This document shows positions 6,062 through 28,003 of a DNA stretch of 64,000 nucleotides, one piece after another. Source of the DNA: Listeria sp. PSOL-1 (GTDB lineage: Bacteria > Bacillota > Bacilli > Lactobacillales > Listeriaceae). The stretch covers positions 930,001 to 994,000 of the forward strand of contig NZ_LR760298.1 in the NCBI RefSeq assembly GCF_902806445.1, read 5' to 3'. The position numbers and the translations under genes were made by a program. The notes under the pieces are model-generated. The model was not told the DNA's origin and ran no database searches. It saw only the letters and a list, made by a program, of their open reading frames with translations. Within the stretch, counting starts at the first letter, position 1. Each line of letters opens with the position of its first letter.

Positions 6062-6310
6062 AATTAAAAAACCCTCTACAAAATAAATTTATTTTGTAGA
6101 GGGCGAATTATCGCGGTACCACCTCATATTAGGAAACTCGTTCCCATCTCATTCGCCAAATAACGGAGGCACCCGTTTTCCCCTACTTCGATTGTTCAAG
6201 GAAACTCTTGCAAGGCCCATTCGAATAGAAAAGAATACCGATTTGCACCAACCACCGGCTCTCTTAGAAAACTTTTCATATTCTACTATTCTTGCTTAAC
6301 GATTTTTAAA
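6062..6310 (-). ncRNA. T-box leader (proximal), tryptophan-specific
   Basis: On the minus strand, a Stem I region with a GAA-UGG specifier (UGG = complement of 6217-6219) is followed by the T-box sequence GGTGGTACCGCG (complement of about 6112-6123). Then comes a 32-nt perfect terminator palindrome (6072-6103) with a U-run. Low charged tRNA-Trp would favour the antiterminator and let transcription into trpE. Confidence 0.93.
6072..6103 (-). terminator. Intrinsic terminator of the proximal trp T-box
   Basis: A 16-bp perfect inverted repeat (CCCTCTACAAAATAAA and its complement), followed on the minus strand by six T residues. It is mutually exclusive with the antiterminator formed with the T-box sequence. 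Confidence 0.93.
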
Positions 6311-6317
6311 TATGGCG

Positions 6318-6616
6318 GCAAATAAAAAAGGGCCTCTCTCCATGTCTATCAAAGACAAGGACGAGAGACCCGTGGTGCCACCTTGGTTAACTAACAATTA
6401 TTAGTTCGCTTCATTCCATCTATTACTTTTTTTCGTAAATGGTGCCTTGTATAACGATAAGGCTTAATCGCTGGTATCCTACTAGAAAAAATTCGTTCAG
6501 ACCAGTGGCTCCAAAGTCCATTCACATCATTTCCGTTACTGATTCGCACCAACCATCAGCTCTCTTTAAAACTTCCATCATGCTACTTACTCTTTTTCAT
6601 CGCCTCTTTTTAGGTT
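6318..6616 (-). ncRNA. T-box leader (distal), tryptophan-specific
   Basis: A second complete T-box lies upstream of the first. The specifier again reads GAA-UGG (UGG = complement of 6518-6520), the T-box core AGGTGGCACCACGG is the complement of about 6369-6383, and the terminator is at 6330-6370. Two T-boxes in series give two termination decisions before trpE, sharpening the tryptophan response. Confidence 0.9.
6330..6370 (-). terminator. Intrinsic terminator of the distal trp T-box
   Basis: On the minus strand GGGTCTCTCGTCC pairs with GGAGAGAGGCCC across a short loop, followed by a run of T. It sits directly after the distal T-box core. Confidence 0.88.
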
Positions 6617-25366: not shown

Positions 25367-25927
25367 TTATTGTTTTCCTTTACTTACTAATTTTAGTCCC
25401 TTAAATTTAAGCCAAATACCGCCCTTCATGTACGACCATGACATCGAAGAAACGGTACTCACAACGATAATAGCAAGTTGAAAGCCTAGACCTCCTGTAA
25501 TTGCAGTTAGAAACATCGCAGCAGCTATACTCCCGCCACAAATCGCACTAGCAGTAGTTGCACTTAAATAAAAAGTTGTATAACCATTCTTTCTAACAAC
25601 CTTTGTCACATCAGCTTTTCTTTGTATCACAGCTTTTTTCAATTCCACTGGTATTTGGATATTCTGTGATTGCATTAACCTAACTAGCTTTGAATCTGTT
25701 ATTGTTACATTTCCTTCTGAATCATAAGTACCCATTTGCTTTGCTTGATTTTGAAGTTGTTCTATATTTATGCTATTTAGTATTTCAGTTGCTTCACTTT
25801 CTAACTTAGGACTAACAATACTTTCATTTTCAGAAGCATATGCAGAAATTGGCGAGGCTATTGGTGCAAAGACTAATGAAGCAACCATGATTGGTGCTGC
25901 AATTTTTAAAACTTTTCTTGTTTTCAC
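25367..25927 (-). CDS. Secreted bacteriocin-like protein of unknown family
   Basis: 186 residues. Clear Sec signal peptide (KTRK, hydrophobic core 9-25, probable cleavage after AYA at 29-31). The mature protein has a charged, helix-prone part (about 32-112), then a Gly/Ala-rich hydrophobic segment (127-163, with CGGSIAAAMFLTAITGGLGF) and a basic tail. This layout is seen in large linear bacteriocins such as streptococcin A-M57 and similar proteins, but homology is not shown. GTG start with GAAGGGC upstream. Followed at 4 nt by a 55-residue membrane peptide. Located in the probable breakpoint region, so likely accessory. Confidence 0.7.
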   Translation of the reverse strand: MKTRKVLKIAAPIMVASLVFAPIASPISAYASENESIVSPKLESEATEILNSINIEQLQNQAKQMGTYDSEGNVTITDSKLVRLMQSQNIQIPVELKKAVIQRKADVTKVVRKNGYTTFYLSATTASAICGGSIAAAMFLTAITGGLGFQLAIIVVSTVSSMSWSYMKGGIWLKFKGLKLVSKGKQ

Positions 25928-26822: not shown

Positions 26823-26845
26823 AAACTGTGTGGAAATACCATTTT
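26823..26845 (+). repeat. Direct repeat copy A bracketing the yneF-tkt insert
   Basis: A 23-nt sequence beginning AAACTGTGTGG and ending AAATACCATTTT. It differs at one base (T versus C at the ninth position) from copy B at 27899-27921. It lies just upstream of yneF. Confidence 0.8.
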
Positions 26846-26983
26846 GTGGTTTTGAAATAAAAATAATTTTTATTTCATTTTCTGAAAAGAACTAGTATGT
26901 GTGATAGGACCATTTTCATTTGTTATTGATATAAAAATAGTGCAATTCAATTGGCAATTGCCACGAGAGCGGGATGAACCTAG

Positions 26984-27079
26984 ATGTATGAATTTTTCAC
27001 GTTAGTTATCGCGCCTATCCTAGTAGGTATAATACTTAGACTATTTTCTTTTTGGCTAGAGAAGAGAGAAGGCAATTAA
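26984..27079 (+). CDS. Fst-family type I toxin-like peptide
   Basis: 31 residues, too short for routine gene finding. It starts with MYEF, has one membrane helix with LVIAPILVGIIL, and ends with a charged WLEKREGN. The order Asp/Glu-x2, then (L/I)VIAPI-(L/F)-VG-hydrophobic, then a charged tail is the pattern of Enterococcus Fst and chromosomal Fst homologues, which damage the membrane when made in excess. A GAGAGCGGG sequence precedes the ATG by several nt, and a GGCAATTGCC palindrome (26953-26962) lies in the leader. A shared terminator and opposing promoter downstream complete the expected layout. Confidence 0.75.
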   Translation: MYEFFTLVIAPILVGIILRLFSFWLEKREGN

Positions 27080-27127
27080 GCAAGTTGTTTCCAGCCCACA
27101 TGTTCAGCAAAATTCGGGCATAAAGAA

Positions 27128-27158
27128 AACCCATCCTATTCCCAGTAGGATGGGTTTT
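27128..27158. terminator. Bidirectional terminator of the Fst-like locus
   Basis: AAAACCCATCCTA and TAGGATGGGTTTTT form a perfect 13-bp stem with a 6-nt loop, with A-run and T-run on the two sides. It can end both the toxin mRNA (+) and the antitoxin RNA (-), as in the par/Fst systems. Confidence 0.9.
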
Positions 27159-27196
27159 TGTGCTTTTGAATCTCTGATTATCAATTTTTCGTTTGT
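27128..27196 (-). ncRNA. Predicted antisense antitoxin RNA of the Fst-like locus
   Basis: A strong minus-strand promoter (next entry) would start an RNA near 27196 that runs into the shared terminator, giving about 69 nt. That is close to the size of antitoxin RNA II in the Enterococcus par system. The interacting direct repeats were not resolved by eye. Confidence 0.55.
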
Positions 27197-27202
27197 ACTA
27201 TT

Positions 27203-27231
27203 ATTATAGCAACTATGAGTACAATTGTAAA
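27203..27231 (-). promoter_or_regulatory. Predicted antitoxin RNA promoter
   Basis: On the minus strand: -35 TTTACA (27226-27231), 17-nt spacer, -10 TATAAT (27203-27208). It points toward the toxin gene. No ORF follows it, so it probably makes a non-coding RNA. Confidence 0.7.
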
Positions 27232-27281: not shown

Positions 27282-27398
27282 CTAAGTAAAAAGTAAGATA
27301 GCAAAAATGATTCCGAGAAACGGCAAAACAAATGATAAGATTAAGAAACAAATAATTTGAGTATAACTAACTTTTAAAACACTCTCATTTTTATTCAT
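27282..27398 (-). CDS. Small single-helix membrane peptide
   Basis: 38 residues: MNKNESVLKVSYTQ, then one hydrophobic helix (about 15-38). GGAAGGAG lies 8 nt before the ATG, a strong ribosome site. It starts 3 nt after the stop of the broken ORF at 27401-27666, repeating the pattern 'secreted protein, then small membrane peptide' seen at 25195-25927. An immunity role is possible but unproven. Confidence 0.45.
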   Translation of the reverse strand: MNKNESVLKVSYTQIICFLILSFVLPFLGIIFAILLFT

Positions 27399-27400
27399 TA

Positions 27401-27666
27401 TTAATGCTCCTTCCAAGCGTTTGTATAACTAAGATTACCGAATCTATTTCCAGCAACAGATACCGCTTCAATACCTGCTTGTGTTGATAATCCTTTTATA
27501 GGGCCGACTCTGAAACTATACTTAGCACGAGCATAAGCTTGTTTGTCGTGAGAAATATACTGTGTTCGATTCTTTAGAGATAATTGTACTATAGGATTGT
27601 GATTATAGACAACAGAAGATTGAGAACTATTGACTTTACTTATTAAGCCACCACTTAAACTCTCCT
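27401..27666 (-). pseudogene. Truncated secreted-protein-like ORF
   Basis: An open frame of about 86 codons with protein-like composition (SGGLISKVNSSQSSVVYNHN, AYARAKYSFRVGPIKG, SVAGNRFGNLSYTNAW) lacks a start codon. A promoter-like TATGAT and AAAAAGGAGAG lie just upstream, but the adjacent GTG is in another frame and stops after two more codons. The simplest reading is that a 5' part encoding the signal peptide was lost while promoter and ribosome site remained. Family not recognised. Confidence 0.45.
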
Positions 27667-27898
27667 TTTTAATTATAATGATTTACGCTTTCATCATAGC
27701 ATAAAACCGGATACAAAAACGAAAAATATAATAAATGAGCCGTTTTTTGTCATAAACGTTAAATATATAAATGTAAGTTTTATATATTTAGTTATTGATT
27801 TATATTAAAAAGTTAATTAAATTTGTTAAATTCAATCTCTCGACCGTCTCATAACTTTTCAAAAACAATGCGTATATTTGGGTTTACGTATATTGAAG
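27667..27898. other. AT-rich spacer between the broken ORF and repeat copy B
   Basis: No ORF or RNA gene was seen. On the minus strand TATGAT near 27690 is a possible -10 for the 27282-27666 genes. The rest is strongly AT-rich. Confidence 0.4.
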
Positions 27899-27921
27899 AA
27901 ACTGTGCGGAAATACCATTTT
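27899..27921 (+). repeat. Direct repeat copy B bracketing the yneF-tkt insert
   Basis: The 23-nt sequence beginning AAACTGTGCGG and ending AAATACCATTTT, one mismatch from copy A at 26823-26845, in the same orientation 1,076 nt away. It lies directly beside the tkt terminator. Confidence 0.8.
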
Positions 27922-27936
27922 ATTATAAATTAAAAA

Positions 27937-27977
27937 AGACTGTAAACAAAGTTTTTTATTTACTTTGTCTACAGTCT
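27937..27977 (-). terminator. Terminator of tkt
   Basis: On the minus strand AGACTGTAGACAAAG pairs with CTTTGTTTACAGTCT and is followed by a T-run. Confidence 0.9.
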
Positions 27978-28003
27978 GACACATTATAATATGTGTTTTT
28001 ACA

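Follow-up and report, generated by a model that had tools for sequence, protein, structure and literature searches.

An Fst-type toxin-antitoxin locus in the chromosome of Listeria sp. PSOL-1 may supply its antitoxin RNA to the toxin of a paralogous locus 636 kb away, in which case a single type I module would be split over two places of the same genome. The chance that this reading is right is judged to be about even, and it rests on the sequence evidence presented below. The window is the whole stretch of DNA that was analysed, 64,000 nucleotides (positions 930,001 to 994,000 of contig NZ_LR760298.1), and positions refer to it unless a genome coordinate is given.

Fst family membership and features of the locus

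The following features have been located in the window, listed by coordinates and strand.

26823..26845, plus strand: left-hand copy of the 23-nt direct repeat that borders the extra DNA of this site
26936..26941, plus strand: best -10-like hexamer of the toxin RNA under the A2/T6 rule, AATAGT (4/6), possibly a degraded promoter
26953..26962, plus strand: 5' arm of the upstream helix of the toxin RNA (RNA I), GGCAATTGCC (relatives GGCAACTTGCC), pairing with 27071-27089
26974..26998, plus strand: start-codon-region repeat on the toxin RNA, a would-be DR site, with weak pairing to its own RNA II
26984..27079, plus strand: Fst-family toxin ORF, 31 codons plus stop, with PF13955 and NF033608 matches
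27071..27089, plus strand: 3' arm of the upstream helix (relatives GCAAGTTG), pairing with 26953-26962
27125..27159, both directions: bidirectional intrinsic terminator, 16-pair stem (plus strand from the scan, minus-strand T-run by eye)
27125..27196, minus strand: predicted antitoxin RNA II, about 72 nt, with an Rfam RefA9 match (predicted length)
27166..27190, minus strand: matching repeat in the 5' part of RNA II, fitting the copy 2 start region best
27203..27231, minus strand: RNA II promoter, TTTACA-17-TATAAT with TG before the -10, consensus match 11/12
27899..27921, plus strand: right-hand copy of that 23-nt repeat, at a distance of 1076 bp and with 96% identity

The product of the ORF at 26984-27079, MYEFFTLVIAPILVGIILRLFSFWLEKREGN, includes a hydrophobic helix, the stretch APILVG (PXXXG), a tryptophan (SFW) and a charged C-terminus (LEKREGN). 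A hydrophobic helix, PXXXG, a tryptophan and a charged C-terminus are the characters of Fst toxins given in the part of a review (PMC7472228) used here. The first-pass annotation had proposed an Fst-type toxin, to be checked by a profile search of the 31-residue peptide against the family, and the search has borne this out, since both curated models were passed: Pfam PF13955 with 37.3 bits (cut-off 36, a margin of 1.3 bits) and NCBIfam NF033608 with 50 bits (cut-off 26). Judged by these profiles, the locus is a genuine member of the Fst family.

Plain membership is ordinary, Fst loci being already well known; the RNAs of Enterococcus faecalis are also covered in the consulted part of PMC3166299. 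Matches over the cut-off were found in 17 of the 25 genomes of the genus Listeria, its own included, and the DNA of positions 26984-27167 showed 68-71% similarity to Fst loci of E. faecalis plasmids, among the matches listed that cover this stretch (best 20 of 41 records). The 2020 review, in the part available (PMC7472228), describes the Listeria Fst clade as the most divergent one, with a PKN(L/I)GF motif; the window toxin has the common PXXXG form, and to this description the present locus adds PXXXG-type Fst loci for the genus.

The locus resembles par of plasmid pAD1 and its chromosomal relative parEF0409 of E. faecalis, also type I systems of the Fst family, in its small single-helix toxin with PXXXG and a tryptophan before the charged tail, and in the predicted convergent RNAs, the shared terminator, the 5' upstream helix and the putative start-codon repeats (features of these systems taken from the consulted part of PMC7472228). 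It differs from pAD1 par in that its start-codon repeats match poorly and find their best partner at another locus, and in that the terminator loop of RNA I, UUCCC, is without the YUNR U-turn motif that pAD1 has. According to the same part of that review (PMC7472228) this motif does not occur in all homologues, so its absence does not exclude the locus from the par group.

Terminator, facing promoter and RNA II

The terminator appeared in the scan output on the plus strand only, and the T-run of the opposite direction, TTTTCTTT, was recognized by eye; together with the unbroken 16-pair stem, this agrees with the bidirectional terminator of the first-pass annotation. The strong promoter that it had described as facing the toxin gene was also recovered on the minus strand (27231-27203), as the top-scoring of eight sites within 1301 bases. 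Because shuffled sequences contained 5.7 such sites (sd 2.8), a promoter-like site as such is unremarkable, and what is remarkable is its quality and its placement. In 38 of 40 Fst loci a promoter faces the toxin gene from 74-124 nt past the stop codon, with a score of 9 or more on a 13-point scale, a count made without shuffle control. These 40 loci comprise 29 genus matches, 10 plasmid records (picked from 387 + 41 records) and one phage record (from 36 records).

A short RNA from this promoter, ending at the same terminator, is predicted as had been claimed, with a length of about 72 nt instead of roughly 69. RefA9, which like RefB11 is an Rfam model of Enterococcus par-like RNAs, matched the minus strand at 27190-27127 with 44.0 bits (gathering 49, E 1.4e-5), compared with 52.5, 45.9 and 38.7 bits in three relatives, including the E. 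faecalis plasmid locus L142, which also lies under the cut-off (45.9). In L142 the models RefB11 and RefA9 fall on the toxin RNA and the facing RNA, respectively, and for this reason RefB11 has been taken to stand for the toxin RNA and RefA9 for the antitoxin. The antitoxin arm of the window, comprising the promoter, the predicted RNA II and the terminator, looks intact.

A paralogue without a seen antitoxin

Three Fst copies are present in the genome, copy 1 being that of the window. Copy 2 (G000:C1:320604-320696, minus strand) encodes a protein 71% identical to the window toxin, and copy 3 (1609115-1609195, minus strand) is a distant, complete locus with a protein 38% identical. The DNA of copy 2 is about 80% identical to the window along a 309-base stretch that begins at 26823 with the left repeat and ends at 27117, short of the terminator. 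It keeps the toxin ORF, the start region and the 5' helix, and folding and promoter scans revealed neither a clear terminator stem nor a good facing promoter downstream. The Rfam search at copy 2 matched RefB11 and gave no match to RefA9; the latter absence is weak alone because the complete loci L145 and L030 are also without a RefA9 match. A terminator finder allowing no mismatches reported no terminator in 14 of 34 loci, including copy 2 (L021) and L004, and when folding was used instead and judged by eye, only these two were without a clear G+C-rich stem. L004 (G021:C1:711980-712063) is thus a partly damaged Fst locus. Two further damaged ones, both with a poor self-pairing rank, are L026 (G010:C1:127830-127907), with a TAG stop within the ORF, and L032 (G010:C1:342982-343062).

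Both toxin ORFs, that of the window and that of copy 2, are open and pass the Fst model. Nine of their 31 codons differ in meaning and two differ silently, so there is no sign of strong purifying selection.

Past copy 2, the opposite strand carries an ORF (L147:5428-5577) that has a signal-peptide-like start and ends about where the similarity to the window stops. Its end, as seen by eye, is possibly a deletion junction that could have removed the copy 2 antitoxin.

Pairing of RNA II with the toxin mRNAs

Pairing of the antitoxin RNA in par systems involves repeats located at the start codon of the toxin, as described in the part of the review used here (PMC7472228). Such interacting repeats had not been clearly found in the first-pass annotation; they are present at 26974-26998 and 27166-27190, but their mutual match is poor. 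The 5' segment of RNA II was predicted to pair with its own toxin mRNA at -16.0 kcal/mol, a value attained by 13 of 1000 dinucleotide shuffles and equalled by 13% of 1988 random stretches of the window. With the copy 2 mRNA the energy was -30.1 kcal/mol, which no shuffle out of 1000 attained, and the predicted helix spans both the Shine-Dalgarno sequence and the start codon of copy 2. Pairing with copy 3 gave -10.9 (745 of 1000 shuffles as good), and copy 3 with its own RNA II gave -33.9 (0 of 1000). Co-folding of the window RNA II with the 5' parts of the toxin RNAs yielded gains of -7.2 for copy 1, -20.4 for copy 2 and -8.2 for copy 3, compared with -27.0 when copy 3 was combined with its cognate RNA II. 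A genome search for the exact gapped motif AATCTCTGAT..CAATTTTT located it twice, at 27169-27189 of the window and at the start of copy 2. When another partner for the start-region repeat of the window toxin was sought in its own genome, ungapped and with at most three mismatches, only the repeat itself was found; a gapped partner would escape this search.

The same comparison has been extended to the 40 Fst loci. Self-pairing ranged from -21.9 to -37.9 in 37 of them, the three weak cases being the window (-14.7, with a shorter segment), copy 2 (-15.6, without an RNA II) and L026 (-18.3, its ORF cut by the TAG). The best partner of the window was copy 2 (-29.0), followed by a locus at -17.1, a lead of 12 kcal/mol. 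Other loci out-paired in this way were mostly out-paired by near-identical ones, and L029, L032 and L144 by unrelated ones. L017, L026 and L032, with self-pairing energies of -23.2, -18.3 and -22.4, were each beaten by several other loci in the set of all 40, L017 by seven, those listed being near copies. Raw energies need to be accompanied by shuffles because unrelated cross-pairs reach -27 (L032 with L024). By these computations, copy 2 is a paralogue without a seen antitoxin that is paired best by the RNA II of the window.

The first of the competing explanations, a conventional intact par-type locus whose facing RNA silences the 31-residue toxin in cis from the shared terminator, as in pAD1, is regarded as unlikely. 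All the anatomical parts for it are present; the -16.0 kcal/mol pairing covers the start codon, and co-folding of RNA II with the full-length RNA I of the window gave a gain of -35.1, the terminator stems being still complementary, so cis action on the window toxin is possible. The start-codon pairing by co-folding, however, is at a non-cognate level, since the gain with the own mRNA does not surpass that with the unrelated copy 3. The convergent layout that the first-pass annotation had compared with the Enterococcus par locus stands as a layout, with its facing promoter and shared terminator; an intact pair is only partly supported, the computed match to its own start codon being little above chance and that to copy 2 strong.

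Condition of the toxin arm

Four measures make the toxin arm of the window look worn. The -10 hexamer is better in 29 of 31 loci, which have 5 or 6 matches, the window and L144 having 4; these 31-locus comparisons did not include L016-L020 (near copies of L015), L026 (internal stop), L028 (a copy of L027), L032 and L166. In the unbroken Shine-Dalgarno match the window scores 5.5 (GGGA) and surpasses L144 alone (5.0), copy 2 reaching 6.5 (GGTGA). The 5' upstream helix is present, but with -11.1 kcal/mol it is the weakest of the nine loci compared, copy 2 reaching -15.1 and the seven other loci -15.6 to -20.0. Finally, RefB11 matched the plus strand at 26953-27125 with 29.3 bits (gathering 54), the lowest score among the loci with a match, compared with 41.1 in copy 2 and 97.4, 77.2, 67.3 and 52.9 in four relatives, among them the three with the RefA9 scores given above. 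Except for the helix, each of these results also speaks against the intact cis-acting locus.

By two other measures the toxin arm is unworn, and these favour the intact locus, being within the range of the other loci: the two-hexamer toxin promoter score is 8.5, with 6 of 31 loci lower, and the gapped anti-Shine-Dalgarno energy is -14.1, with 6 of 31 loci weaker. In addition, a TGN-extended TATAAA read from the sequence at 26930-26935 (plus strand) could be the toxin promoter, which would help the same explanation. The toxin promoter, which had not been clearly found before, thus has a -10 that exists but is poor and a two-hexamer score that is ordinary. On balance, the window combines a good antitoxin arm with a poorer toxin arm, and copy 2 is a fair toxin arm without an antitoxin arm.

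An alignment of the RNAs of eight loci (the window, L011 and six plasmid loci, several of them closely related) produced a consensus consisting of the upstream helix, a pre-terminator hairpin and the terminator. Double changes preserving the pair were observed in 19 of the 61 predicted pairs, none of them among the ten main upstream-helix pairs.

A proposed module split over two loci

In the split-module reading, the locus would have entered the gap between tkt and yneF along with about 1.1 kb of extra DNA, and the two copies would have suffered complementary damage, the toxin arm of the window being worn and the terminator and RNA II of copy 2 being gone. The RNA II of the window would then pair in trans with the copy 2 toxin mRNA across its Shine-Dalgarno sequence and start codon and block translation of that toxin, the two half-loci thereby forming one working module. 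It is the computed pairing that points to action in trans; transcription, toxicity, binding in trans and selection for such binding are things that we infer. That the split arose by complementary decay, the pairing segment being kept for the distant toxin and a cis-antisense RNA having become obligately trans-acting, is proposed tentatively, as a possibility that falls somewhat short of an even chance.

Several points limit the split-module reading. The Shine-Dalgarno sequence of copy 2 is short (GGTGA), binding to copy 2 may be slower because the contact at which pairing starts in pAD1, the terminator loop, is absent there, and the match between RNA II and copy 2 could be shared ancestry without function. 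The still complementary terminator stems of the two window RNAs, the two measures by which the toxin arm is unworn and the lack of a sign of strong purifying selection between the toxin ORFs also count against it. The species sample behind this reading is one genome.

Paralogous modules in one genome are also known from Staphylococcus aureus, where SprA1/SprA1AS and SprA2/SprA2AS encode the Fst toxins PepA1 and PepA2. Each S. aureus antitoxin is specific, whereas for the antitoxin of the window a better fit is predicted with the paralogue than with the adjacent toxin. In the part of PMC6393315 consulted, binding of SprA2 needs no more than the 5' part of SprA2AS and no cross-regulation with SprA1 was found, so that action of RNA II in trans is plausible but not the rule. 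The same part of that paper (PMC6393315) describes crosstalk between toxin-antitoxin modules as largely under-documented and reports none between two modules of the Fst family. Anti-addiction systems, in which chromosomal protein antitoxins act on toxins of plasmids, for example CcdB of F (consulted part of PMC10305079), share with the present case an antitoxin acting on a related toxin encoded elsewhere; they differ in that proteins are involved there and, by prediction, an antisense RNA and a chromosomal paralogue here. No split Fst module was found among the matches listed in the open-licence literature, mostly titles and abstract starts. If the split is real, each of two copies has lost one half and an antisense RNA has thereby passed from cis to trans; this would be a natural case in which losing a small chromosomal insertion should free a distant toxin.

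Site and origin of the extra DNA

The host is taken to be a species of the genus Listeria, because its transketolase shares 79-80% identity with the enzymes of Listeria rocourtiae, newyorkensis, grayi and others and no more than 66% with the non-Listeria matches listed (best 80 of 96). Its genome is a single contig of 2,096,749 bases; at 2.10 Mb it is below all 24 other genus genomes searched (2.6-3.2 Mb).

Family matches of the flanking genes confirmed the chromosomal site between yneF and tkt given in the first-pass annotation. The tkt and YneF matches are separated (end of the first to start of the second) by 1219 bases in this genome and by 61-195 in the 24 other genus genomes, a count in which the second, weaker YneF matches L140 and L141 were left out. 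The extra DNA of about 1.1 kb is therefore absent in 24 of 24 relatives, and the window locus is taken as a putative lineage-specific acquisition. The 23-nt repeat at its ends, searched with at most two mismatches, occurs in one of 25 genus genomes and there at three places, all beside the two Fst paralogues: at both ends of the extra DNA of the window and once beside copy 2. The search for a mobile element behind this repeat gave 0 exact matches in viral contigs and, in plasmids, six matches with E values of 0.2 to 9 only, so no mobile element was identified. Plasmid DNA resembling the rest of the extra stretch was limited to three records, all at window positions 27920-27985, near the tkt end.

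That the two loci are decaying leftovers of a mobile element, the match between RNA II and copy 2 coming from a common ancestral module with nothing functional left, is considered improbable: the absence of the extra DNA from the 24 relatives, a broken ORF adjoining the locus, the predominance of non-silent codon changes and the further damaged Fst loci of the genus (L004, L026, L032) would fit it, but the near-consensus antitoxin promoter, the unbroken terminator stem, a RefA9 score that falls between the extremes of three relatives and two toxin ORFs that are still open and recognized by the Fst model argue against it.

Inside the extra DNA there is an apparent broken gene, a 90-residue open stretch without an evident start (27401-27673, minus strand), after which comes a 44-codon ORF encoding a hydrophobic peptide (27282-27416, minus strand); a family search gave nothing above the cut-off for either of them. 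A 186-residue secreted-type protein is encoded at 25367-25927 (minus strand) and has a paralogue 66% identical at L147:4232-4789 (G000:C1:319231-319788), also without a family above the cut-off in either case, as well as a more distant relative (42%) in the genome G023. Since each of these secreted-protein genes is no more than about 1.1 kb from one or the other of the two related Fst copies, the neighbourhoods of the window locus and copy 2 seem to share acquired DNA. Elsewhere in the window, tandem T-box leaders are located on the same strand at 6096-6308 and 6354-6609 (minus), matching Rfam RF00230 with 132 and 126 bits.
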